DNA of 64,000 nt from positions 62,001 through 126,000 of the forward strand of contig NZ_JAATEJ010000004.1 of NCBI RefSeq assembly GCF_012034175.1, read 5' to 3'. Origin of the DNA: Actinacidiphila epipremni. Its GTDB lineage: Bacteria; Actinomycetota; Actinomycetes; Streptomycetales; Streptomycetaceae. Within the stretch, counting starts at the first letter, position 1. Each line of letters begins with the position of its first letter. This document shows positions 7,290-19,446 of the stretch, in pieces. The notes below the pieces were generated by a model, which searched no databases, was not told where the DNA came from, and saw only the letters and a list, made by a program, of their open reading frames with translations. The position numbers and the translations under genes are program-made.

Positions 7290-7730
7290 GATGGATTACA
7301 AGGAGATCATCACGGAGTTGTCCGACGGTCTGGCCCGGCCGAGCCGTTGAGATTCCGGCTGGGAGGTCACCGGCAGCGGCGCGGTCGCGCGGGCCCGGCA
7401 GCGTCTGGGCGATGCGGTGTTGGCTGACCTGTTCGACACCGTCGCGCGGCCGGTTGCAGAGCTGCTCACTCCCGGCGCATTCCTGGGCGGCTGGCGGCTG
7501 ATGGCCGTCGACGGCTTCGAGCAGGACGCTCCCCACACGGCCGCCAACGCCGACGCCTTCGGCTACGCCGGCGGCAGCACACATCCCTCGGCGTTCCCCC
7601 AGGTGCGACTGGCCACGCTCTCGGAAGTCGGTACGCATGCCGAGACCGGGGCGGCGATGGGGCCGGTGACCGGCACCGGCTCGGCAGATCTTCGCTGCCT
7701 GCTAGAAGGACACCCCCGGCGACGACGTAC
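7290..7730 (+). pseudogene. IS4-family transposase relic
   Basis: Reading from the ATG at 7292 gives the start of a coding region stopped by TGA at 7349-7351. The same frame then continues with sequence typical of actinobacterial IS4 transposase N-terminal halves: ARARQRLGDAVLADLFDTVA, FLGGWRLMAVDGF (first catalytic aspartate region), HTAANADAFGYAGG and SAFPQVRLATLSEVGTH. Similarity fades after about 7715 and no terminal inverted repeats are apparent. The surrounding 7068-7999 stretch holds nothing else recognisable. It sits between the truncated oxidase and the restriction operon, so it probably marks the left edge of the accessory island. Confidence 0.75.
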
Positions 7731-7999
7731 GGGAGCCGGGCCCGGTCTTCGACCGGTGCGAGCAGGGGACCCTCATGTGACGGAACTGTTTCTCCAGGCA
7801 AGCGTCATTGCACGCGGCACGTTGCTTACCACCGCCTCACCAGGACCTCTTTGGTGGCGGGCTGGTCTGTGTTCGTTTGCCGACATGCCAGCCCGTGCAG
7901 AGCGGGGGCGAACGACTACACGACTGCTGCTGTCACTCAGCGCCCAGACGGTACGCTTGTCCGGCTAAGCAGCTGGAGTAGAGATCGGAGTCGGCGACT

Positions 8000-9544
8000 G
8001 TGACCCACGAGGACGTGGCCGAGCAGCTTGAACTGCTACCGAGGACGCCGGCCCCGCTCACTCTGGGGGAGCTCGAATCGCATCTGTGGGGTGCCGCCCA
8101 GATTCTTCGAGGGCTGATTGACCAGGCTGACTTCAAGAGTTATATTTTTCCGCTGCTCTTCTTCAAGCGGATCTGTGACGTATATCTGGAGGAGTTCCAG
8201 GAGGCCCTGGACGAGTCCGGAGGCAATACTACGTTCGCAAGTTATGCCGACCAACATCGCTTCGACATCCCCCACGAGCACATGTGGCACAAGGTTGTGG
8301 AAGCAAAAGATGAGGCACTCGGACAGGCTCTGGCCACGGCACTCCGAGAGATCGAAAAGGCAAATCCAGACACCCTCGCCGGGATCTTCGGCGACACCCC
8401 TTGGACGAACAAGGACCGGCTGCCTGCCAAGGTACTGCGCCAACTGCTCAACCATTTCTCAGGGCGCCATCTCGGCAACTCCGTCGTCGAAGCCGATCTG
8501 CTGGGTCAGGCATACGAGTACCTGATCAAGAAATTCGCCGACCTCTCGAACAAGAAGGCAGGGGAATTTTACACTCCTCGCGAGGTAGTGCGTCTCCTTG
8601 TCGACATCCTTGATCCGCAGAAAGGCGAGACTGTCTACGACCCGACCTGCGGGACGGGCGGGATGCTGATCGAGGTCGTTCATCACTTCGTTCGCCGTAA
8701 GGATGATCCAAAATACTTGAGGGCGAAGATGTTTGGTCAGGAGAAGAACCTGACCACCTCCGGTATCGCGAGGATGAATCTCTTCTTGCACGGTGTTGAG
8801 GATTTCTATATCGAACGCGGAGACACTCTGCGCGACCCGAAGTTCCTCGACCAGGACGCCCTGCGCCAGTTCAACTGCGTAATCGCCAATCCTCCTTTCT
8901 CTCTACAAGCCTGGGGGGAGGAGGATTGGGGCAACGATCTATTCCAGCGGGGCCTTACAGGCGTTCCCCCACGGCGCTCGGCCGACTTCGCCTGGGTTCA
9001 GCACATGATTGCCTCGATGTCCCGGGACGAGGGCAGGGCGGCAGTAGTACTCCCGCAGGGGGCGTTGTTCCGCGGCGGGGCTGAAGGAAAGATTCGCGAC
9101 AAGATCGTGGAGTCCGACGTCATCGAAGCGGTCATCGGCCTGGGTACCAACCTTTTTTATGGCACTAGCCTCGCCGCGTGCATCTTGGTGCTTCGGCACG
9201 ACAAGCCTGCCGGTCGAAAGCGCCAAGTTCTCTTCGTAAATGCAGCGGACCAGTTTCGTAAGGGGCGCAACCAGAACACCTTGGAAGACCAGCATGTGTC
9301 CCGCATCCACGGTTGGTACCGAGCCTTCGCCAATATTGCTGGTCGCAGTCGCCTCGTTGACCTGGCAGAGATTCACGATAACGGCGGAAGTCTCAATATT
9401 CCGTTGTATGTAGCCGAGGACACCCGCGCAAACTTCGCGCCCCTCGTTGAGGCAGTCGCCTCGTTGGAGGGGGCATTGGCCGACGTAGCCATGACCGAGG
9501 ACGCTCTACGTAGGCAGCTCAAAGAATGGGAACTGCTCGGATGA
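8000..9544 (+). CDS. hsdM: Type I restriction-modification methyltransferase subunit HsdM (copy 1)
   Basis: 514 residues from GTG 8000. The N-terminal HsdM helical domain (ELESHLWGAAQILRGLID, YIFPLLFFKRICDVY) precedes an N6-adenine methyltransferase domain. AdoMet-binding motif I is DPTCGTGGML at about residue 214 and catalytic motif IV is NPPF at about residue 297; FYTPREVVRLLVDIL precedes motif I, as is usual. It should methylate adenine in the recognition sequence chosen by HsdS and form the core of the restriction complex. Its last bases overlap the start of a second HsdM gene (ATGA). GC content is lower than in the flanking chromosome, consistent with transfer. Confidence 0.92.
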   Translation: MTHEDVAEQLELLPRTPAPLTLGELESHLWGAAQILRGLIDQADFKSYIFPLLFFKRICDVYLEEFQEALDESGGNTTFASYADQHRFDIPHEHMWHKVVEAKDEALGQALATALREIEKANPDTLAGIFGDTPWTNKDRLPAKVLRQLLNHFSGRHLGNSVVEADLLGQAYEYLIKKFADLSNKKAGEFYTPREVVRLLVDILDPQKGETVYDPTCGTGGMLIEVVHHFVRRKDDPKYLRAKMFGQEKNLTTSGIARMNLFLHGVEDFYIERGDTLRDPKFLDQDALRQFNCVIANPPFSLQAWGEEDWGNDLFQRGLTGVPPRRSADFAWVQHMIASMSRDEGRAAVVLPQGALFRGGAEGKIRDKIVESDVIEAVIGLGTNLFYGTSLAACILVLRHDKPAGRKRQVLFVNAADQFRKGRNQNTLEDQHVSRIHGWYRAFANIAGRSRLVDLAEIHDNGGSLNIPLYVAEDTRANFAPLVEAVASLEGALADVAMTEDALRRQLKEWELLG

Positions 9545-11151
9545 ATCACCAGGAGACCATCGTCGTTCCTCGCCAGAGCCAGTCAGACCAGGCGAATCAC
9601 AAGAGCGGGGCAAAGCAGGCTGGTATCGATGTCCTGCCGGGGCTCGAACTGCGGGAACCGCAGCACCTCGAACAGCGTGAACTGGAAAGCTATCTCTGGG
9701 GAGCCGCGACCCTGCTGCGTGGGCTGATTGATGCCGGTGACTACAAGCAGTTCATCTTCCCGTTGCTATTCTTCAAGCGCATCAGTGATGTGTACGACGA
9801 GGAGCGGGAAGAGGCGATTGCCGCCTATGGTGATCACGATCTGGAGACCGTAGCCAAGAGAGAGAACTACCGTTTCCAGATTCCGGATGGAGCGCACTGG
9901 GAAGACGTACGATCAGCGAGTGCAGACCTCGGCAAGGCCCTCAAGCAAGCCATGCAGCAGATCGAGTCTGCCAATCCAGACCAGCTGACTGGTGTCTTCG
10001 GCGACGCGCAGTGGACCAACAAGGAGCGTCTTTCTGACGAGACTCTGCGGAACCTGCTGGAACACTTCTCGACGCAAGTGTTGTCGCTGTCCCGGGTACC
10101 GGAGGACGAACTAGGCCGGGCCTACGAGTTTCTGGTCAAGAAATTCGCCGACGACTCCGGGCACACGGCCCAGGAGTTCTATACCAACCGGACGCTCGTC
10201 CGGTTGATGGCGCGTATGTTGCGGCCACAGCCAGGCGAAAGCGTGTACGACCCGACCTGCGGCACGGGCGGCATGTTGGTTACCGCGGCAGCGGAAGTCA
10301 AGGACCAAGGTGAGGATCACCGACGGCTGGGGCTCTTTGGCCAGGAACTCAACGTCATGACCTCGTCGATTGCCCGCATGAACCTGTACCTCCACGGAAT
10401 CGAAGAGTTCAGGATCGAGCGCGGCGATACGCTCGCCGATCCATTGTTCTTCGAAGGGGATAGGCTGCGCCGTTTCGACGTCATCCTGGCTAATCCTCCC
10501 TACTCCATCAAGCAATGGAACCGGGACCTTTTCACCGAGGACCCGTACAAGCGCAACATCTGGGGCGTCCCGCCACAGGGACGAGCGGACTACGCCTTCT
10601 TGCAGCACATTGCAACTTCTCTTAACCCGGACACAGGACGATGTGCGATCCTCCTCCCGCACGGCGTGCTCTTCCGCGCGGACGAGCGCAAAATGCGACA
10701 GAAACTCATCGAGTCCGATCTGCTTGAGTGCGTTCTGGGCCTTGGGCCGGGCCTATTTTACAACTCTCCAATGGAGGCGTGCGTCGTCATCTGTCGCACG
10801 CGGAAGCCGGCGAAACGTCGAAAAAAAGTCCTATTCATTGATGCGATGCACCTGATCGAGCGCACTCAAGGGCAGTCCTTCCTGAGCGAAGAGCACATCG
10901 CGGAGATCCTCGTGGCGTACGAGGGCTTTGCTGATATTCAGGGCTTGTCAGCAGTAGTGAGCTTGGAATCTCTTATCGCAGCAAAGGCTGACCTCGCAAT
11001 CAGTCGGCATGTCGAAAAGATCCCCACTGGGGAAATGGTCGGCGATAGCATCCCGCTGCCGGAGGCCGTGTCACAGTGGGATGGTTCAATGCGTGACAAT
11101 ATGCAGGCCGCGAAACGGGCCATCGCTAGAATTCGGGGAGACGAGGAATGA
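9541..11151 (+). CDS. hsdM: Type I restriction-modification methyltransferase subunit HsdM (copy 2)
   Basis: 536 residues; ATG 9541 overlaps the previous stop as ATGA. It has the same architecture as copy 1, with an extra 30-40 residue polar head. The helical N-domain reads ELESYLWGAATLLRGLIDAG; motif I is DPTCGTGGML at about residue 237 and motif IV is NPPY at about residue 318. The two HsdMs are clearly paralogous but diverged in many segments, for example FYTNRTLVRLMARML here against FYTPREVVRLLVDIL. Both keep the catalytic motifs. A single HsdS follows, overlapping by 4 bases. The complex may therefore contain two different methyltransferase subunits, one per half-site, which is unusual. 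Confidence 0.9.
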   Translation: MNHQETIVVPRQSQSDQANHKSGAKQAGIDVLPGLELREPQHLEQRELESYLWGAATLLRGLIDAGDYKQFIFPLLFFKRISDVYDEEREEAIAAYGDHDLETVAKRENYRFQIPDGAHWEDVRSASADLGKALKQAMQQIESANPDQLTGVFGDAQWTNKERLSDETLRNLLEHFSTQVLSLSRVPEDELGRAYEFLVKKFADDSGHTAQEFYTNRTLVRLMARMLRPQPGESVYDPTCGTGGMLVTAAAEVKDQGEDHRRLGLFGQELNVMTSSIARMNLYLHGIEEFRIERGDTLADPLFFEGDRLRRFDVILANPPYSIKQWNRDLFTEDPYKRNIWGVPPQGRADYAFLQHIATSLNPDTGRCAILLPHGVLFRADERKMRQKLIESDLLECVLGLGPGLFYNSPMEACVVICRTRKPAKRRKKVLFIDAMHLIERTQGQSFLSEEHIAEILVAYEGFADIQGLSAVVSLESLIAAKADLAISRHVEKIPTGEMVGDSIPLPEAVSQWDGSMRDNMQAAKRAIARIRGDEE

Positions 11152-12314
11152 CTGCGAACCGTGACGTTTGGTCTGTGGTCACCTTCGGCTCGGTAGTCCG
11201 GCAGATCAGAGATGTAGTGGACCCAGTTGCGGATGACGTGGAGCGTTTCGTAGCAGGCGAACACATGGAGTCGGGCCAACTCACCATAAGGAAGTGGGGG
11301 CTGGTCAAGGATACCGATCTGGGCCCCGCGTTCTACCGCAGATTCCGGCCGGGGCATGTCCTCTACGGCTCGCGGCGACCCTACCTGCGTAAGGTAGCAC
11401 GCGCAGATTTTGCGGGCGTTTGTGCCGATAAAACTTTCGTCGTGGAGAGTGCAAACCCGCAGGAACTACTGCCCGAGTTCCTGCCTTTGGCCATGATGGC
11501 CGAAACATTTCATGCCCACTCGATCACCTGGTCTAGGGGTTCGATCAACCCCTACGTGAACTGGTCCGATGTTGCGAAGTATGAATTCCGGCTACCTCAG
11601 TTGAGTGAACAGCAGCGAATCGCTGGCCTGATGTGGGCATTCGAGGAGACGGTGCTGGCTAAGAGGTCGGCGCTGGAGGCTGCTCAGAAAGCAGAGGTTT
11701 CTGCGCTGGTTGAGTTGTATGACGAGCCGGCATGGCCGGTTCGGCGCGTGGATGAGGCTGGAGATGTTCAACTTGGGCAAGGGCTCTCTTCCCAAACGCG
11801 TTCTGGTGGAAGAAGTCGCCCCTATCTTCGGGTAGCCAATGTGGGGGACGATGAACTGTTCCTCGATGATGTGCGGGCGATGACTTTTGATGAGACTGGC
11901 TTTACCAAGTATCAGCTCCGCGACGGGGACGTTCTACTCAATGAAGGGCAGAGCCTAGAATACGTGGGACGCTCCGCTATCTATCGTAGCGAACTTAGCG
12001 ATTGCTGTTTCCAGAATTCTTTGCTTCGGTTCCGAAGTAGCGGCGACATCCTGCCCGAGTTCGCCCATGGATGGTTCCGCCGGTGCCTGCACATGGGACA
12101 GTTCGCGCGAGTTGCGAAGCGAACCACGTCGCTAGCCCATCTCTCAGCCGGCTTGCTCTCGTCCCAGCCCATCCCTGTCCCGCCCAAAGCGGACCAGCAG
12201 CGCGTGGTGGATCGCCTCGCCGCCGCCCGTGAGCTGCGGCAAACCTTGGAGCAGGGCTTGGAGGAAACCCGTACCCTCATGTCACGGACACTGAACGCGG
12301 TGCTGAACGGCTGA
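11148..12314 (+). CDS. hsdS: Type I restriction-modification specificity subunit HsdS
   Basis: 388 residues, start ATG 11148 overlapping the HsdM2 stop. It shows the two-fold layout of HsdS: a first target-recognition domain (to about residue 140), a conserved helical spacer beginning PQLSEQQRIAGLMWAFEET, a second recognition domain from about residue 190, and a terminal spacer helix (PPKADQQRVVDRLAAARE). The repeated QQR-containing helices set the spacing between the two half-sites. The recognition sequence cannot be predicted by reading. A 23-base gap separates it from hsdR. Confidence 0.9.
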   Translation: MTANRDVWSVVTFGSVVRQIRDVVDPVADDVERFVAGEHMESGQLTIRKWGLVKDTDLGPAFYRRFRPGHVLYGSRRPYLRKVARADFAGVCADKTFVVESANPQELLPEFLPLAMMAETFHAHSITWSRGSINPYVNWSDVAKYEFRLPQLSEQQRIAGLMWAFEETVLAKRSALEAAQKAEVSALVELYDEPAWPVRRVDEAGDVQLGQGLSSQTRSGGRSRPYLRVANVGDDELFLDDVRAMTFDETGFTKYQLRDGDVLLNEGQSLEYVGRSAIYRSELSDCCFQNSLLRFRSSGDILPEFAHGWFRRCLHMGQFARVAKRTTSLAHLSAGLLSSQPIPVPPKADQQRVVDRLAAARELRQTLEQGLEETRTLMSRTLNAVLNG

Positions 12315-12337: not shown

Positions 12338-15300
12338 ATGTTCGACGAACGGACCACAGTTCAGGCTTTCGTGACCGATGTTCTGTCTGAATTGTCTGAT
12401 ACCTTCCCAGGTCAACTTGCCTGGGCCCACGTCGCCGGATCTGCGCTGGACAGGGTTGAGACGGACGTCCTGGTCGAGTCTGAGGTTCGCGACGCCCTGA
12501 TCCGGCTCAACCCGGAGATTGCTGCCGATTCCGATCATGCCGACGAGGTGATCTACCGACTCACCGGACTCGTCCTCTCTGCCCGCAGCACAGGGGTTGT
12601 GAAGGCCAATGCGGATTTCCGCTCATGGCTACTCGGTGAGCGGTCCATGCCATTCGGGACGGATCACGAGCACGTCACAGTGCAGCTGGTCGACTTCAAT
12701 GATCTGACGCGCAACACCTACAGAGTTGCCACGGAGGTGACCTTCCGCCGTGGCGGCGTAGAGGTCAGATTCGATCATGTGTTGTGGGTTAACGGACTAC
12801 CTTTGGTGGTTGGCGAAGCAAAGTCGGCTACCCGACGGGGTGTCACCTGGGCTGACGGCGCACTTCAGATAGACGTGTACCAGCAGGATGTACCCGAGTT
12901 TTTCGTCCCCAACGCCTTCTGTTTCGCTACGGATGGTAGGGATCTCCGCTATGGAGCTGTACGGACGCCACTCCAGAAGTGGGGGCCTTGGCGCGTTGGT
13001 TGGGACGTAGGCGAGCCCAGAACGCGGCAGTCTAATGCCGATCATGTCGATGAGGGATCCGGTTTCCTCGACGAATCTGAGGACGTTCCGTCACTCATCT
13101 CCGCCAGTGACACGGAATCCCTCTCGAACGAGCACCGTTCGTCGGGCACCGGCCCTTCAGCACTCCGCCGTGCCGTGGAGGGGCTCCTCGCCCCGGACAC
13201 CGTGCTCGACATCCTGCGCAGCTTCACCGTTTTTGGCACCGACAAGAACCACCGCAAGACTAAAACAGTCTGCCGCTATCAGCAGTACGAGGCCGGCCGC
13301 CGCATGGTGGACCGGGTGGCTGATCCAGATGCCCCCCGAAAGGGTTTGATCTGGCACTTCCAGGGTTCCGGCAAGTCCCTGCTGATGGTGTTCACTGCTC
13401 AGGCGCTGAGGGCACATCCTCGGTTGCCGGCTCCTACTGTGCTCATCGTCGTGGACCGCCAGGACCTCGATACGCAAATCACGACGATCTTTAACGAAGC
13501 CGATGTGCCCAACGTCGTCTCTGCCAATGGTGCTTCGGAACTACGCGAGATGTTGGCCAGTGGCCAGCGGAAGATCATCGTTACTCTGGTCCACAAATTC
13601 CGGAGAGAAGAGCTCAGTGATGTGATATCCACGCGCGGTGACATTGTGTGCCTGGTGGACGAGGCCCACCGGACGCAGGACGGCGACTTCGGCCTGCGCA
13701 TGCGCCACGTCCTGCCCAACGCCGTCTTCTTCGGTCTCACCGGTACACCGATCAACCGCAGTGACGTCAACACCTTCAACACCTTCGGTGCCGAGACGGA
13801 CAAGGGTCGCTACCTGTCCAAGTACTCCCAGGCTCAGTCCATCCGCGACAGGGCCACCTTGCCACTGCACTTCGAGCCGAGGGATTCGCGGTTCCAGATC
13901 GACCGGTCGGTACTGGACGCCGAGTTCGACCAGCTTACCGAGGGGCTGGGCGCGGCGGAGAAGGCCGCTATGCAGCGGCGTGCGGCTCGTATGGGTGCCC
14001 TGATCAAGGCGCCCGACCGGATCCGTCGCGTGTGCGACGACATCGCCGAGCACTTCTCTGCCAAGGTCGAGCCAGAGGGCTTCAAAGCGCAGGTGGTGGT
14101 CTTCGACCAAGAGGCATGTCACCTCTACAAGCAAGAGCTGGACAAGCGGCTCGGCCCCCAAGCATCCGAAGTTGTTGTCTCCGCTTCGGGATTGCCTAAG
14201 CCACTTAAAGATCGCTACAGCCGTACCAAGGTCGAGGAAGCCGCTCTGTTGGAGCGGTTCGGTGACCCAGACGACCCACTGAAGATCCTCATCGTCACCG
14301 CGAAACTTCTCACTGGCTTCGACGCTCCGATCGTGCAGACCATGTACCTGGACAGGGCGTTGAGGGATCACACGCTGCTCCAGGCCGTGTGCCGCGTTAA
14401 CCGTCCGTACCGTGCACCTGGCAGCGACCAGGAAAAGACTCACGGGCTAATCGTGGACTATCTCGGTGTCTTCGGTCCCTTGAGTAAGGCGCTGCGGTTT
14501 GATGAGCAGTCAATGGAGCAGACAGTCCAGGACATCCAGAAGCTGTGGGACAAGTTGCCCCAGGCATTGGAGGACTGTCTTGAGTTCTTCCAAGGGGTGG
14601 ATCGGACGGAGGACGGCTACAAAGGGCTCTTCGCGGCCCAGCAGAAGCTGCCCGACGAGGACACCCGGGAGCAGTTCGCTATCGCGTTCGCAACGCTGTC
14701 GCGTCTGTGGGAGGCGCTGTCTCCCGATCCTAGGCTGAACGACCACCTCGCCGACTATCGGTGGCTTGCGCAGATCCACCACTCAGTCCGCCCGTCTACC
14801 GCGACGACGCCGCTCTTGTGGCGCTCACTCGGACCTAAGACCCGGGAACTGATCAACCGGAACATCCACGCCGATGCTCCGCCGGGACACCTGGAAACGC
14901 TCGTGATCGACGCCGAGCTTGCGGAATACCTTGAGAGGCAGCCGGCAGACCAGGGGGTACGCAGGCTCCAACCGAATCTGGCTCAGAGGATCTCCCGGCA
15001 CAGAGGGAAGGCATCGTTCGACTCTTTGTCAGAGCGGCTGGAGCGGTTGCGCTTGCAGTACGAACAAGATCAGCTCGACAGCGTCAAGTACCTCAAGGCG
15101 CTGCTGGTCCTCGCTCGCGATGTCGCTGCTGCCGAGCGGGACGCAGAGCAGGACCGGAAGACACAGAGCCCGGAGGAGGAAGGACGCACCGCCCTGACGA
15201 CGTTGTTCGAGACCTCCCGTACTGCGGAAACCCCCGTGGCAGTTGCCAAGCTAGTCGAGGAGATCGATGACATCGTCCGGAATGTGAGGTTCCCTGGGTG

Positions 15301-15427
15301 GCAACGGACCGTCAGCGGTGAGCGCGAAGTGAAAAGGGCGCTTAGGCGCACGCTGATGCGCTATCAGCTGCAGAAGGACGAGGAACTCTTCCAGAAGGCG
15401 TACGACTACATCCGCCAGTACTACTGA
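12338..15427 (+). CDS. hsdR: Type I restriction endonuclease subunit HsdR
   Basis: 1029 residues, the usual HsdR length. The N-terminal nuclease domain has the PD-(D/E)xK signature, with Asp about 146 (FDHVLWVNG) and Glu-x-Lys about 164-166 (VVGEAKS). The translocase follows: Walker A FQGSGKS (Lys about 346), motif Ia VLIVVDRQDLDTQ, the DEAH box LVDEAHRTQDG (about 441), motif III FFGLTGTPI, and the second RecA domain with AKLLTGFDAP and QAVCRVNRPY. The C-terminal helical domain binds the methyltransferase. An upstream GGAACAGGAG element provides a ribosome site. All nuclease and helicase motifs look intact, so restriction is probably active. Confidence 0.92.
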   Translation: MFDERTTVQAFVTDVLSELSDTFPGQLAWAHVAGSALDRVETDVLVESEVRDALIRLNPEIAADSDHADEVIYRLTGLVLSARSTGVVKANADFRSWLLGERSMPFGTDHEHVTVQLVDFNDLTRNTYRVATEVTFRRGGVEVRFDHVLWVNGLPLVVGEAKSATRRGVTWADGALQIDVYQQDVPEFFVPNAFCFATDGRDLRYGAVRTPLQKWGPWRVGWDVGEPRTRQSNADHVDEGSGFLDESEDVPSLISASDTESLSNEHRSSGTGPSALRRAVEGLLAPDTVLDILRSFTVFGTDKNHRKTKTVCRYQQYEAGRRMVDRVADPDAPRKGLIWHFQGSGKSLLMVFTAQALRAHPRLPAPTVLIVVDRQDLDTQITTIFNEADVPNVVSANGASELREMLASGQRKIIVTLVHKFRREELSDVISTRGDIVCLVDEAHRTQDGDFGLRMRHVLPNAVFFGLTGTPINRSDVNTFNTFGAETDKGRYLSKYSQAQSIRDRATLPLHFEPRDSRFQIDRSVLDAEFDQLTEGLGAAEKAAMQRRAARMGALIKAPDRIRRVCDDIAEHFSAKVEPEGFKAQVVVFDQEACHLYKQELDKRLGPQASEVVVSASGLPKPLKDRYSRTKVEEAALLERFGDPDDPLKILIVTAKLLTGFDAPIVQTMYLDRALRDHTLLQAVCRVNRPYRAPGSDQEKTHGLIVDYLGVFGPLSKALRFDEQSMEQTVQDIQKLWDKLPQALEDCLEFFQGVDRTEDGYKGLFAAQQKLPDEDTREQFAIAFATLSRLWEALSPDPRLNDHLADYRWLAQIHHSVRPSTATTPLLWRSLGPKTRELINRNIHADAPPGHLETLVIDAELAEYLERQPADQGVRRLQPNLAQRISRHRGKASFDSLSERLERLRLQYEQDQLDSVKYLKALLVLARDVAAAERDAEQDRKTQSPEEEGRTALTTLFETSRTAETPVAVAKLVEEIDDIVRNVRFPGWQRTVSGEREVKRALRRTLMRYQLQKDEELFQKAYDYIRQYY

Positions 15428-15516: not shown

Positions 15517-16752
15517 TTGGCTTCACCGCGGGTACTTCGCTCCGCCGCGCGGCCCACGGTCATGACCGTGCGGGAGGCGGTCACCGAGTTGCGTGGCGGA
15601 CGACTGCGCTTGGCGGCCGATCCTGGCGGTACAGGTGAGTGGCCCAAGCGACGTAAGCACCTGTTGCTGGACTCCGTCCTCCGTGGCTGGCCCATTGGGT
15701 CCCTACACGTGGTGCAGGGACCGGACGATGTACGCACTGTCATGGACGGCCAGCGTCGGCTGGCAACGTTGTATGAGTTCGTCGATGGCCGCCTCGACCT
15801 GGATGGTCGGATCACTCCCCACGACCCGGTGCTTCGTGAGTCTGACGGGAGGCTATACCCGAATCTGCCGTCTGGCCTTCGCGCGGCGATCGACGACTAC
15901 CCCTTGGTTGTGCTCGAAATCGAGGGGATGCCCGCCGCCGATCTGCGCTCGGCTCTCCTGCGCTTGAACGACGGCACAGGTCTTTCCGAGACAGGGCGCA
16001 AGCTGGTGGAATCGGGCTCCTTCGGAGCACAAGTGCGCGACTTGGTCCTGAATGCCGTTGACTGGGGACTGACTGAAGAACGGGTCAGCTTCGGCAACGT
16101 CGGTCTGGCATACGACGACCTGATTAGCAGGGCGCTCGTCGCCGTGGAGGAGGGAAGCGTCCGCACCGCCGCCGCGGATAGCAAGGAGCTCGCTGATCGG
16201 TTGCAGTCCGGGCACCCTGTCTCCCCTGAGACACTGAATGAGGTGTCCGAAGCGCTAAAGGAATTGCTCTCTCTACCCGCGCTCGACCTTCCCGCCGTCC
16301 GCTTTGTCAAGCCCACACTATTGAGCTGGCTGCTTGTCATGATTCACGCCCGAAGGTGCCTCGGACCGGGCTCCGAGCACCATCTCGGGCATCTCCTGGA
16401 ATGGTTTGAACCGCAACGCCTCAGGCTGGCCGCCCGCCTTAGTCTCGACATGCGACCACCGTTGCGTTCCGGGATGAAGGGCCTTCCCTACGAAGCTCTC
16501 CTCGCCAGATTCAACGAATCGTCTGCCGTGGCAGCCCACGGCCCCGACGCGACCATTTTGCGTGACGCGATCCTCTGGCTGTTTCTGGTTGCGACGGGCG
16601 GCGCCCCGTCGCGTCGTACGGAACCGGTGCCGGCTGTTATGCGGATGTTTGAAACGCTTACGCGACCGGACGCCGCCGCGCTCGAGGACGAAGACCTGGA
16701 TGAGCTGCTCTGGGCCCACGGCAGCCTCGGTTCCTGGGGGGAATGGCGTTGA
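15517..16752 (+). CDS. DUF262-domain protein (GmrS-like / ParB-Srx fold)
   Basis: 411 residues from a TTG at 15517 with AGAGGAGG 8 bases upstream; the next in-frame ATG is at 15562. The N-terminal 200 residues fit DUF262: a basic segment (WPKRRKHLLLDSVLRGWPIG), then DGQRRLATLYEF at residues 77-88, the family's nucleotide-handling motif, and later RLNDGTGLS. DUF262 occurs in GmrSD-type modification-dependent restriction enzymes and other phage-defence proteins. No DUF1524 HNH nuclease is fused; the C-terminal half is helical and unassigned. It overlaps the next gene, an ATPase-TOPRIM protein, by up to 10 bases. It sits 90 bases after hsdR in the same direction and may share its transcript. Confidence 0.75.
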   Translation: MASPRVLRSAARPTVMTVREAVTELRGGRLRLAADPGGTGEWPKRRKHLLLDSVLRGWPIGSLHVVQGPDDVRTVMDGQRRLATLYEFVDGRLDLDGRITPHDPVLRESDGRLYPNLPSGLRAAIDDYPLVVLEIEGMPAADLRSALLRLNDGTGLSETGRKLVESGSFGAQVRDLVLNAVDWGLTEERVSFGNVGLAYDDLISRALVAVEEGSVRTAAADSKELADRLQSGHPVSPETLNEVSEALKELLSLPALDLPAVRFVKPTLLSWLLVMIHARRCLGPGSEHHLGHLLEWFEPQRLRLAARLSLDMRPPLRSGMKGLPYEALLARFNESSAVAAHGPDATILRDAILWLFLVATGGAPSRRTEPVPAVMRMFETLTRPDAAALEDEDLDELLWAHGSLGSWGEWR

Positions 16753-18194
16753 GAGAGGCCGAGGTCCGAGAGGGGTACCGTCAACTCGCTGAAGGTAAGG
16801 CGCAGTCGCCCCTGCGTGAGGTTTACATCGACGGGCATGCCCATCTGGGTACGGTGCTGGCTGAGATGGCGCCAGGTGTCACGCTGCTGTGTGGTGTAAG
16901 CGGTGTGGGGAAGACCCAGTTCCTGCGGACGATGGCGCACGAGCTTGGCACATTCTCGGTGGCCTATGACGGACAAGTGCCCTCAGTACGGATCACTGGC
17001 CGTGTACTGCACGGCCCGTCGGCGAAGAAGGGCGCTCCGCCGCCACTGGACGACACGAATCTTGCCGTAGCCAACACGCCATGCTTGTACATCGACACCG
17101 CGCGCGAGTGCTTCGACGTGTTGACCCAGGTGCGACGTACCTCGGACGACGAGTTGGAAGCCCTTCGTGCTTCGGCGGCCAAGTCCCCGCCCCACCGCTG
17201 GGCGGACGCGGCACTGCGCTACATCCTTGGCCGGGAATACGAGGACATCTCCTATCAGGAGTTGGACCGGCAGAACCCCGAGAGTGGCGAGCCGCGCACC
17301 TGGTTCTACCACGAGCTGACCTACGCGAGGACGGCATACGGCCCTGACAAGATGAGCTTGGGAGAGCTGGCTGCCTGCGTCATGCTCCAGGCGCTGCGCA
17401 GGGCTCCCAGGGGAAGCATCGTGCTGCTCGACGAGCCGGAGAACTTTCTGTCCCCCAAGTCCCGGCAGCGCCTACTGCACGAGATCATCGGGTGGTCGCT
17501 CAAACAGCAAATTTCCGTCGTCGTCGCCTCTCACTCGCCGGAGATCGCGCAGATACTGCCACCCGCATCGCTGCGAACGATCCAGCGAGGTCCTGGGGAT
17601 CAGGGAGTGGTGATCTCCGCTGGAGGCATTCCGGCGCAAGTTAACAGGGTTCTGGGGCTGAAACCGCGCCCCGAAGCAGTGCTGCTGGTAGAAGATGGCT
17701 TCGCCAAGGCGCTACTAGAGGCCGTCCTTGCCCGGTGCGCACCGAATCTGCGCCATCACGTTCTAGTCCAGGACGTGCGAGGCGCTGACCAAGTCACGGC
17801 GGTCGCCGGTGCCCTTGGGCCAACACATCCGGGCATGCATTTCCTCGGGGTATTGGATGGTGACATTCGAACGGATCCCAAATACCAGGGGCCGTGGCTC
17901 GCATACCTGCCCGGCGACGGTGATCCCGAGGCTGTAGTCATGGAGGCTATTACTGCTGATTTAAAGAAAGCAGCAAGGGGCCTCGATATCGCCTGGGAGG
18001 AACTAGACCAGGCAGTCGCCGATACCGAGGCGAGCGACCCTCATGACCAACCCAAGATCGTTAGTGAGTCTGTCGGCGTTCCCTTGCCTCAGCTGATCTC
18101 ATACACGGCGCGGTGGCTCGAGAAGGGCAGCCCGTACCGCAGAGAAGTTCGGCAACTCGTGGAGCGGATCGAGGCGCTTATGTCTCCCGAGTGA
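16743..18194 (+). CDS. ABC-type ATPase with TOPRIM-like domain (OLD/AAA_21-like)
   Basis: Up to 483 residues. ATG 16743 overlaps the DUF262 stop by 10 bases, but TTG 16749 (TTGA overlap, G-rich site 7 bases upstream) is equally plausible. ATPase motifs are Walker A GVSGVGKT (51-58), the signature-like KMSLGELAACVMLQ near 200, Walker B VLLDEPENF (Asp 230, Glu 231) and the H-loop ASHSPE (His 264). A TOPRIM-like domain follows: LLVEDGFAKAL with Glu 317, then GVLDGD with Asp 372 and Asp 374, the acidic triad expected for metal-dependent DNA or tRNA cleavage. OLD nucleases, GajA and the PARIS pair share this ATPase-plus-TOPRIM logic. This is a compact single-chain version, and its pairing with DUF262 is noteworthy. 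Confidence 0.8.
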   Translation: MALREAEVREGYRQLAEGKAQSPLREVYIDGHAHLGTVLAEMAPGVTLLCGVSGVGKTQFLRTMAHELGTFSVAYDGQVPSVRITGRVLHGPSAKKGAPPPLDDTNLAVANTPCLYIDTARECFDVLTQVRRTSDDELEALRASAAKSPPHRWADAALRYILGREYEDISYQELDRQNPESGEPRTWFYHELTYARTAYGPDKMSLGELAACVMLQALRRAPRGSIVLLDEPENFLSPKSRQRLLHEIIGWSLKQQISVVVASHSPEIAQILPPASLRTIQRGPGDQGVVISAGGIPAQVNRVLGLKPRPEAVLLVEDGFAKALLEAVLARCAPNLRHHVLVQDVRGADQVTAVAGALGPTHPGMHFLGVLDGDIRTDPKYQGPWLAYLPGDGDPEAVVMEAITADLKKAARGLDIAWEELDQAVADTEASDPHDQPKIVSESVGVPLPQLISYTARWLEKGSPYRREVRQLVERIEALMSPE

Positions 18195-18330: not shown

Positions 18331-19403
18331 CTAGTGTCCTGAGTCGTTAATTCGTGTGCAGTATGCGGCGAGGGTTTCGAGGATGTCGTCGGCGGTCTTC
18401 GTCCAGCCGAACGGCTTGGGGCCCTTGTTCCACTCGTTGATCCAGCCGCGGAGGTCCCGTTCGAGTTCGACGACGCTTCGGTGGGCTGAGCGGCGGAGTT
18501 TGCGGCAGGTCAGCTCGGCGAACCAGCGCTCGACGAGGTTGAGCCAGGACGCCGAGGTGGGAGTGAAGTGCAGGTGGAAGCGGGGGTGTCGCAGCAGCCA
18601 CTTCTTGACCGGCTCGGTCTTGTGGGTGGCGTAGTTGTCCAGGATCAGGTGGAGTTCGAGGTCCTTGGGGACGGCTGCGTCGATGACCTTCAGGAAGCGG
18701 AGGAACTCCTGGTGGCGGTGGCGGCGGTAGTGCTGGGCGATGACCGAGCCGGAGGCGATGTCCAGGGCTGCGAACAGGCTGGTCGTGCCGTGCCGGACGT
18801 AGTCGTGCGTCATCTTCGCCGGCGTGGCCGGCGCCATCGGCAGCACCGGCTGGGTCCGGTCCAGGGCCTGTATCTGCGACTTCTCGTCCACCGCCAGGAC
18901 CAGGGCGTTCTCCGGCGGGGACATGTAAATGCCCACCACATCGCGGACTTTGCCCACGAACTGCGGGTCAGTCGACAGCTTCCACGTCTCCACGATGTGC
19001 GGCTTGAGACCGAACGCCCGCCAGATCCGCGAGACAGCCGACTGCGACATGCCGGCCCGCCTCGGCCATCGACCGTGTCGACCAGTGCGAATCACCCGTC
19101 GGCGGCGACTGGCCGAGCGTCCTGGCGACCAGGGCCTCGACCTGCTCGTCCGTGATCTTCCGCGGCGCCCCCGCACGCGGCCGGTCCACCAGGTCCCTCC
19201 AGCCGGTCCGCGACGAACCGGGCCCGCCACTTGCGCACTGTCTCCCGAGAGATACCCAGGCCATCCGCGACCTGCGCGTTCGACAGGCCCTCCGCACACG
19301 CCAGCACGATCCTCGATCCCAAAACCAGCGCGTGGGAAGCGGTCTGCTTGCGCAACCAGCCCCGCAACACCCGGCCTGCGCGATCGGACAACTCCAACGG
19401 CAA
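18331..19403 (-). pseudogene. IS630-family transposase, two frameshifts
   Basis: Three overlapping frames together spell one transposase. The N-terminal helix-turn-helix (NAQVADGLGISRETVRKWRA) is in one frame. Near 19190 an extra base shifts to RPRAGAPRKITDEQVEALVA, and near 19050 a lost base shifts to the catalytic part. The catalytic part carries the DDE residues: ALVLAVDEKSQIQ, HLILDNYATHK and TSASWLNLVERWF. Because the first two thirds and the last third are out of frame, no full protein is made without frameshifting. IS630 transposases are occasionally split into two overlapping frames, but two changes at these places look like decay. Confidence 0.8.
18333..18351. repeat. IS630 left terminal inverted repeat
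   Basis: Reads AGTGTCCTGAGTCGTTAAT; pairs with 19447-19465 on the opposite strand with one mismatch. The transposase stop codon lies at its edge. Confidence 0.85.
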
Positions 19404-19446
19404 ACGGCTTCGGACCAGGCACCGGCCCGCCTACAACCGCAAGAGA

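Follow-up and report, generated by a model that had tools for sequence, protein, structure and literature searches.

A DUF262/GmrS-like gene and an OLD-like ATPase-TOPRIM gene behind hsdR as a possible second effector arm of a predicted m6A/m4C type I restriction-modification cassette

A non-canonical class of type I restriction-modification (R-M) systems modifies one DNA strand with m6A and the other with m4C, and the signature of the class is the presence of two HsdM proteins, one with an NPPF and one with an NPPY motif (PMC9613975). The main text of the paper on PacII, a system of this kind, does not mention DUF262 or accessory genes (PMC9613975). The OLD proteins have been divided into classes 1-4 by their genetic context, i.e., alone, with a UvrD helicase, with RT/ncRNA, or split into ariA and ariB, and the trigger of most OLD-type nucleases is considered open (PMC10568477). 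HEC-04/IbfA has been described as a single protein (PMC12111858), while BrxU is known to complement BREX (PMC10952713).

The DNA analysed here, a stretch of 64,000 nucleotides from Actinacidiphila epipremni (hereafter, the window), carries a cassette of six genes in the order M1-M2-S-R-A-B, with the following features:

8000..9544, + strand: M1, HsdM of 514 aa with motifs AGEF and NPPF, predicted m6A methyltransferase subunit (Pfam N6_Mtase, E 8e-98)
9526..11151, + strand: M2, second HsdM, of 541 aa with motifs AQEF and NPPY, predicted m4C methyltransferase subunit (Pfam N6_Mtase, E 1e-82)
11148..12314, + strand: S, HsdS specificity subunit of 388 aa (Pfam Methylase_S, E 1.5e-12; PADLOC Specificity_I, 270 bits)
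12338..15427, + strand: R, HsdR of 1029 aa with intact motor and nuclease motifs (HSDR_N, E 8e-28; SWI2_SNF2, E 1e-65)
12773..12880, + strand: HsdR nuclease motif D146, E160-x-K162, Q177-x3-Y181 (HsdR alignment)
15517..16752, + strand: A, DUF262/GmrS-like protein of 411 aa with a TTG start and no DUF1524 HNH domain (PF03235, E 5e-8)
15745..15762, + strand: residues 77-82 of A, DGQRRL, the DUF262 nucleotide-pocket motif (alignments of relatives)
16736..16752, + strand: A/B junction, a GGGGGGA ribosome-binding-like run within the conserved WGxW end of A, then the TTGA overlap (nine loci compared)
16743..18194, + strand: B, OLD-like ABC ATPase-TOPRIM protein of 483 aa (ATG 16743) or 481 aa (TTG 16749) (AAA_21, conservation, model, structure matches)
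16893..16916, + strand: Walker A of B, GVSGVGKT, residues 51-58 (G51, G54, G56 and K57 invariant)
17691..17864, + strand: TOPRIM residues of B, E317 ... D372-x-D374, then LPGxxDPE (conservation; P2 Old alignment)

M1 and M2 share 47% identity, and because the operon has two hsdM genes, one encoding NPPF and the other NPPY, we assign it by subunits and motifs to the m6A/m4C type I R-M systems as its predicted class; the two hsdM genes were not mentioned in an earlier note on this DNA. NPPF in M1 and NPPY in M2 recur in all nine loci that carry A and B (below). The cassette forms a low-G+C island (58-63% vs. ~70% outside), the right edge of which is marked in the window by a transposase gene with a DDE_3 domain (18331-19422), convergent with B and ~135 bases behind it. 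Scans for sigma-70-type promoters and terminators performed no better than on shuffled sequences.

The earlier note had described, at 15517-18194, a DUF262 gene that directly follows hsdR and overlaps by 4-10 bases a gene for an ATPase-TOPRIM protein of about 480 residues, and this description was borne out. Both open reading frames are found there, 89 nt separate the end of hsdR from the start of A, and the overlap amounts to 10 nt when B is read from ATG 16743 or to 4 nt (TTGA) when it is read from TTG 16749. The GGGGGGA run (16736-16742) is better spaced for the TTG than for the ATG, and the start of B and the stop of A overlap as [T/G]TGA at the same place in nine of nine loci. The TTG start of A is itself preceded, 8 nt on its 5' side, by a Shine-Dalgarno sequence (AGGAGG).

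The DUF262 assignment of A held as well, with the match to PF03235 (DUF262, now GmrSD_N) barely passing the gathering cut-off (33.7 vs. 33.2 bits). No Pfam match to the DUF1524 HNH nuclease domain was obtained for A, and its C-terminal half is helical in the predicted model (pLDDT 76.7). Within the nucleotide-pocket motif, D77, G78, R81 and L82 are invariant while several relatives have G or A at the position of Q79, that is, the DGQQR-type motif reads DG[QGA]xRL across relatives, and the QR motif that lies upstream in other DUF262 proteins is missing from A in the alignment. Since part of the usual DUF262 nucleotide motif is missing, it appears doubtful that A acts as an NTP-driven switch and uncertain that it is an ordinary NTPase. 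Searching solved structures with the sequence of A gave no match; its predicted model has a fold like the sensor parts of BrxU, SspE and DndI and also resembles ParB/sulfiredoxin (Srx) folds. The likeness to the N-terminal part of SspE extends over 134 residues at 3.6 A (Z 7.5), while that to BrxU can at best be domain by domain given an rmsd of 15 despite a Z of 8.6. Judged by its sequence, A is a divergent member of the DUF262/GmrS-like proteins that lacks the HNH nuclease.

B matches Pfam AAA_21, and its best PADLOC model is HEC-04 (62 bits, residues 160-418), followed by weaker, generic ATPase matches to AriA (44 bits), NsnB (31 bits), PtuA and GajA. The residues that the earlier note had singled out (Walker A/B, the H-loop, E317, D372 and D374) are invariant among 15 B homologues, as is P395 of LPGxxDPE, with E396 being nearly so. 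The TOPRIM domain also folds in structure prediction: in a model built from the 15-sequence alignment (mean pLDDT 87.6), residues 311-390 (to 400) show the beta-alpha alternation of strands and helices of a TOPRIM domain, with E317 after its first strand and D372-x-D374 after its third. The best solved matches by Foldseek were Thermus OLD (E 1.8e-12) and Gabija GajA, and hhalign aligned B with P2 Old over a stretch that starts at Walker B, includes LVE and extends to DxD (E 4e-7). A second structure aligner covered only residues 21-309 (Z 15-18 to Smc, Rad50, PtuA and AriA), so that for TOPRIM the evidence of similarity comes from Foldseek, the P2 Old alignment and conservation. B is, on sequence and model, an OLD-like ATPase-TOPRIM protein with a nuclease activity predicted from Walker A/B and E...DxD. 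B-like ATPase-TOPRIM regions also occur in longer open reading frames in L007 / L024 (G108, Nocardia carnea-like locus) and L034 (6608-8632); the protein of L007 has ~170 extra N-terminal residues that look helix-turn-helix-type by eye, which suggests a fused sensor or regulator.

To assess how widely the pair occurs, relatives were recruited by patterns for the motif regions of B in 84,980 species genomes, using a two-sequence alignment of these regions since the broad plasmid-homologue alignment was too diverse for pattern scans; A without B was searched for in 297 Streptomycetaceae genomes only. Eight close relatives of A-B were found, three in Streptomyces and five in other actinobacterial genera (Amycolatopsis, Actinokineospora, Kibdelosporangium, Nocardia and Actinomadura), with 46-63% identity to the window in A and 33-54% in B. 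All eight have A immediately upstream of B and, immediately upstream of A, an hsdR that shares 53-67% identity with that of the window; R-A-B is therefore common to nine of nine loci, window included, while the complete order M1-M2-S-R-A-B is found in seven of the nine (window, L071, L072, L073, L074, L075 and L078). B is a rare gene, present in just one of 35 genomes of the genus, namely that of the window, and distant B homologues were found in 5 of 393 other Streptomycetaceae and in 1 of 395 other genomes of the phylum sample. None of the distant homologues (26-33% identity: L044, L046-L051; plasmid L008-L013; L031-L036) has an A partner beside it. Neither the B pattern scan of the 84,980 genomes nor the A profile in the 297 Streptomycetaceae revealed a full-length A-B pair away from hsdR, and in the latter set no full-length A was found away from the pair, the only similarity being the shared DUF262 domain. 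Viral contigs scanned with B, the A profile and the two-sequence B alignment contained no A-B pair, and their sole relative was a distant B homologue without A (L036).

Hence, the idea in the earlier note that homologues pair stands for the close relatives (eight of eight, with the conserved overlap) but not for the distant homologues of B. Its view of the genes as a two-gene defence unit carried with R-M is supported insofar as the pair is recurrent and under purifying selection (dN/dS of A and B among the Streptomyces relatives is 0.08-0.16, the same as for the R-M genes), but the unit needs to be enlarged to at least R-A-B, and usually to M1-M2-S-R-A-B. Likewise, synteny of the pair away from type I R-M, which the note had proposed to look for, did not emerge: all the full pairs recovered stand behind hsdR genes belonging to a single type I lineage, and this, together with R-A-B having moved as a block (below), defines the minimal unit. 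In an unselected sample of 392 actinobacterial genomes, three of the three M1-M2-S-R loci lack A-B. Because M1-M2-S-R occurs without A-B, and distant B homologues occur without A, A-B marks one lineage of m6A/m4C type I systems and is probably not needed for restriction itself. In trees of HsdR and M2, the rows with A-B need two changes rather than one, as L078 sits on an unsupported fork, and thus the trees neither show nor refute a single origin.

Several other gene arrangements are worth describing at this point. Plasmid relatives of A were rejected as instances of the same pair, being other DUF262 proteins whose partners are SNF2/methylase, SIR2, none, or Menshen. We also rejected the DUF262-ATPase neighbours of other Streptomycetaceae, in which the ATPase matches B in the ATPase part only and which for this reason look Menshen-like; in five such loci (L113-L117) the paired DUF262 and ATPase genes encode no TOPRIM, and L113 contains a third gene as well. 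One m6A/m4C type I cassette without A-B (L099, G383:C8, 7860-10574) continues, a few bases past hsdR, with a DUF4917 gene and, next to it, one encoding an ApeA N-terminal domain; these two genes are a further candidate for an accessory pair attached to hsdR of this kind. On Rhodococcus jostii pRHL3 (L013, 2130-6918), a HEC-04-like ATPase-TOPRIM gene, with no DUF262 gene, lies ~215 bases behind a different type I hsdR; this arrangement indicates that ATPase-TOPRIM proteins of this family may have become linked to type I R-M on more than one occasion. In a streptomycete (L031, 7422-10242), the end of a gene that resembles one for a DNA cytosine-C5 methyltransferase is overlapped by a B-like ATPase-TOPRIM gene, another R-M-like association of the B-type effector family. 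Finally, a Rhizobium plasmid (L016, 2874-9151) carries a DUF262 gene between methyltransferase and DEAD/DEAH helicase genes in what resembles an Hma- or DISARM-like locus, and the C-terminus of its DUF262 protein looks HNH-like by eye.

The loci of Actinokineospora (L076) and Amycolatopsis (L077) share the order R1-A-B-M1-M2-S-R2, with the following feature:

L076 7461-10388 and L077 (reverse complement) 7414-10335: R1, nuclease-dead, motor-intact HsdR

R1 has lost the D, E, K and Y of the PD-(D/E)xK site (FE in place of FD, GVAT in place of GE[A/T]K, and D or H where QxxxY has its Y), while its motor motifs are unchanged (Walker A GSGKS, DEAH, TGTP, GFDAP), and the nuclease of R2 is intact. 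In the trees, R1 falls among the HsdR proteins of A-B loci (support 97/100), but R2 and the M2 next to it fall among cassettes that lack A-B (100/100). R-A-B has thus stayed together as a block, and the M1-M2-S that belonged to it has been either lost or exchanged. Between the two genera, R1 differs by 157 synonymous and 84 non-synonymous changes over 975 codons, with a dN/dS of 0.157 overall, 0.185 in the dead nuclease domain and 0.15 in the motor, values that are not those of a decaying pseudogene. The block is ~92% identical in DNA between the two genera, and the loss of the nuclease is a single evolutionary event, present in both through common descent or through transfer of the block; nuclease-dead R1 may for this reason be a special case. 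No further R1-type locus was found in 18 more genomes of the Amycolatopsis group. That the motor next to A-B has lost its nuclease and yet been kept by selection in two relatives suggests that the A-B pair is able to do the cutting.

Our best explanation of R-A-B is that the six genes form an m6A/m4C type I cassette in which A-B is a second, TOPRIM-based effector arm tied to HsdR, to which we would give not quite an even chance. Under this explanation, the M1-M2-S-R enzyme would find unmodified (foreign) DNA and translocate it; A would couple the HsdR motor, engaged or blocked on DNA, to B; and B, ATP-bound and dimerising, would cut nucleic acid with its TOPRIM site. A, which has no HNH half, would thus have its nuclease supplied in trans by B, and the outcome would be restriction (or cell shutdown) even if the nuclease of HsdR is missing, blocked or insufficient. 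The explanation is based on the composition of the cassette, its conservation and the selection acting on it, the intact residues of B, the R-A-B block, and R1 with its dead nuclease and live motor. The physical complex, its trigger, the substrate of B and the defence function of the cassette are what we infer from these observations. The narrower proposal, that R-A-B is a new effector complex in which HsdR translocates, the GmrS-like protein relays and the OLD-like TOPRIM cuts in trans, is one that we advance tentatively; if it is true, the nuclease of HsdR would be dispensable, one lineage having indeed lost it, and R-A-B would represent a further genetic class of OLD proteins.

Alternatively, and as the main rival to the effector-arm explanation, A-B might be an abortive-infection pair that guards the type I enzyme and is set off when a phage anti-restriction protein (Ocr- or ArdA-like) binds to that enzyme, with the nuclease-dead HsdR of L076 and L077 serving as bait. 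PARIS is set off by Ocr. The ATPase plus TOPRIM composition is the PARIS/OLD layout (cf. the AriA match of B), the link of A-B to hsdR is constant, and a dead HsdR beside a live one is what a bait would look like. However, a pure bait could drop its motor motifs, and R1 keeps all of them under the selection noted above for the motor, a point that comes from one lineage; further, PARIS has no DUF262 partner. On balance, we consider guarding of the type I enzyme unlikely, albeit deserving of serious attention.

A type IV-like role, in which A senses modified phage DNA (cf. GmrSD, BrxU and SspE) and B cuts it, would cover phages that the type I enzyme cannot cut, with the link to R-M serving joint transfer as for BrxU beside BREX. 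The sensor-like fold predicted for A and the known complementarity of BrxU and BREX (PMC10952713) speak for such a role, but it accounts neither for the association of A-B with a single hsdR lineage and its persistence beside R through a change of M1-M2-S, nor for the retention of a nuclease-dead HsdR, and the DUF262 motif of A is eroded; we therefore regard it as improbable. Still less probable, in our estimation, is that A-B is an independent two-gene defence unit of Menshen-related logic hitch-hiking with R-M. DUF262 and ATPase pairs do exist away from type I R-M, in Menshen (L018) and in other streptomycetes, but full-length A-B away from hsdR was not found, and the ATPase of Menshen is separate, without TOPRIM, and accompanied by NsnC.

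Returning to the described systems, the cassette shares with PacII and the other M1M2S-type m6A/m4C type I systems two HsdM (NPPF and NPPY), one HsdS and one HsdR in one operon (PMC9613975), and differs from them by the addition of A and B, which the three unselected M1-M2-S-R loci lack. With HEC-04/IbfA, B has in common the single chain of ABC ATPase plus TOPRIM (~480-520 aa), and the HEC-04 model is matched by 15 of 15 members of the B family, B itself scoring 62 bits, whereas plasmid homologues of B without a DUF262 partner score 150-626 bits. We place B in the same broad family but reject HEC-04/IbfA as the system, since HEC-04 is described as one gene alone and B overlaps A and follows hsdR in nine of nine loci, a distinction of gene arrangement only. 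The fold and acidic residues of B are those of OLD nucleases such as P2 Old, GajA, the retron-Eco8 effector and PARIS, but its context, DUF262 plus HsdR, lies outside all four OLD classes (PMC10568477). Specifically, Gabija was rejected because B has no GajB UvrD-like helicase beside it (in the window B is surrounded by A, hsdR and a transposase gene, and the pair is flanked in the relatives by hsdR or M1, with no GajB); PARIS, because B is a fused chain with HEC-04 as its best model, the AriA match lies in the generic ATPase part and the partner is DUF262; and a retron, by the gene context of B.

Menshen (NsnA-NsnB-NsnC) is similar in having a DUF262 protein beside an ATPase, and A aligns with NsnA over the first 160 residues. 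However, A scores 42 bits for NsnA (residues 13-137) and B 31 for NsnB, as opposed to 400/315/249 bits for NsnA/NsnB/NsnC in the reference locus L018; the NsnB of L018 lacks the TOPRIM motifs that B has; and no cassette protein of the window matched NsnC, the genes flanking the pair being hsdR and the transposase. A shares with GmrSD, BrxU, SspE and DndI the DUF262 ParB/Srx-like fold and the helices that follow it, while GmrSD itself was rejected given that A, although it has DUF262, lacks the DUF1524 HNH nuclease. No PADLOC model describes the A-B pair, so that the earlier note was fair in calling it uncharacterised, and in the literature consulted we found neither DUF262 plus TOPRIM behind hsdR nor a type I system whose operon always includes a second effector arm. 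We rate the system as a predicted m6A/m4C type I R-M whose operon carries a proposed second pair of effectors, which joins three defence families usually treated apart, namely type I R-M, GmrS-like DUF262 sensors and OLD nucleases. The nuclease-dead HsdR amounts to a natural mutant and leads to the prediction that protection by R-A-B would hinge on the TOPRIM residues of B and on the HsdR motor but be independent of the HsdR nuclease, and R-A-B may thereby offer a route to study the triggers of OLD-type nucleases.
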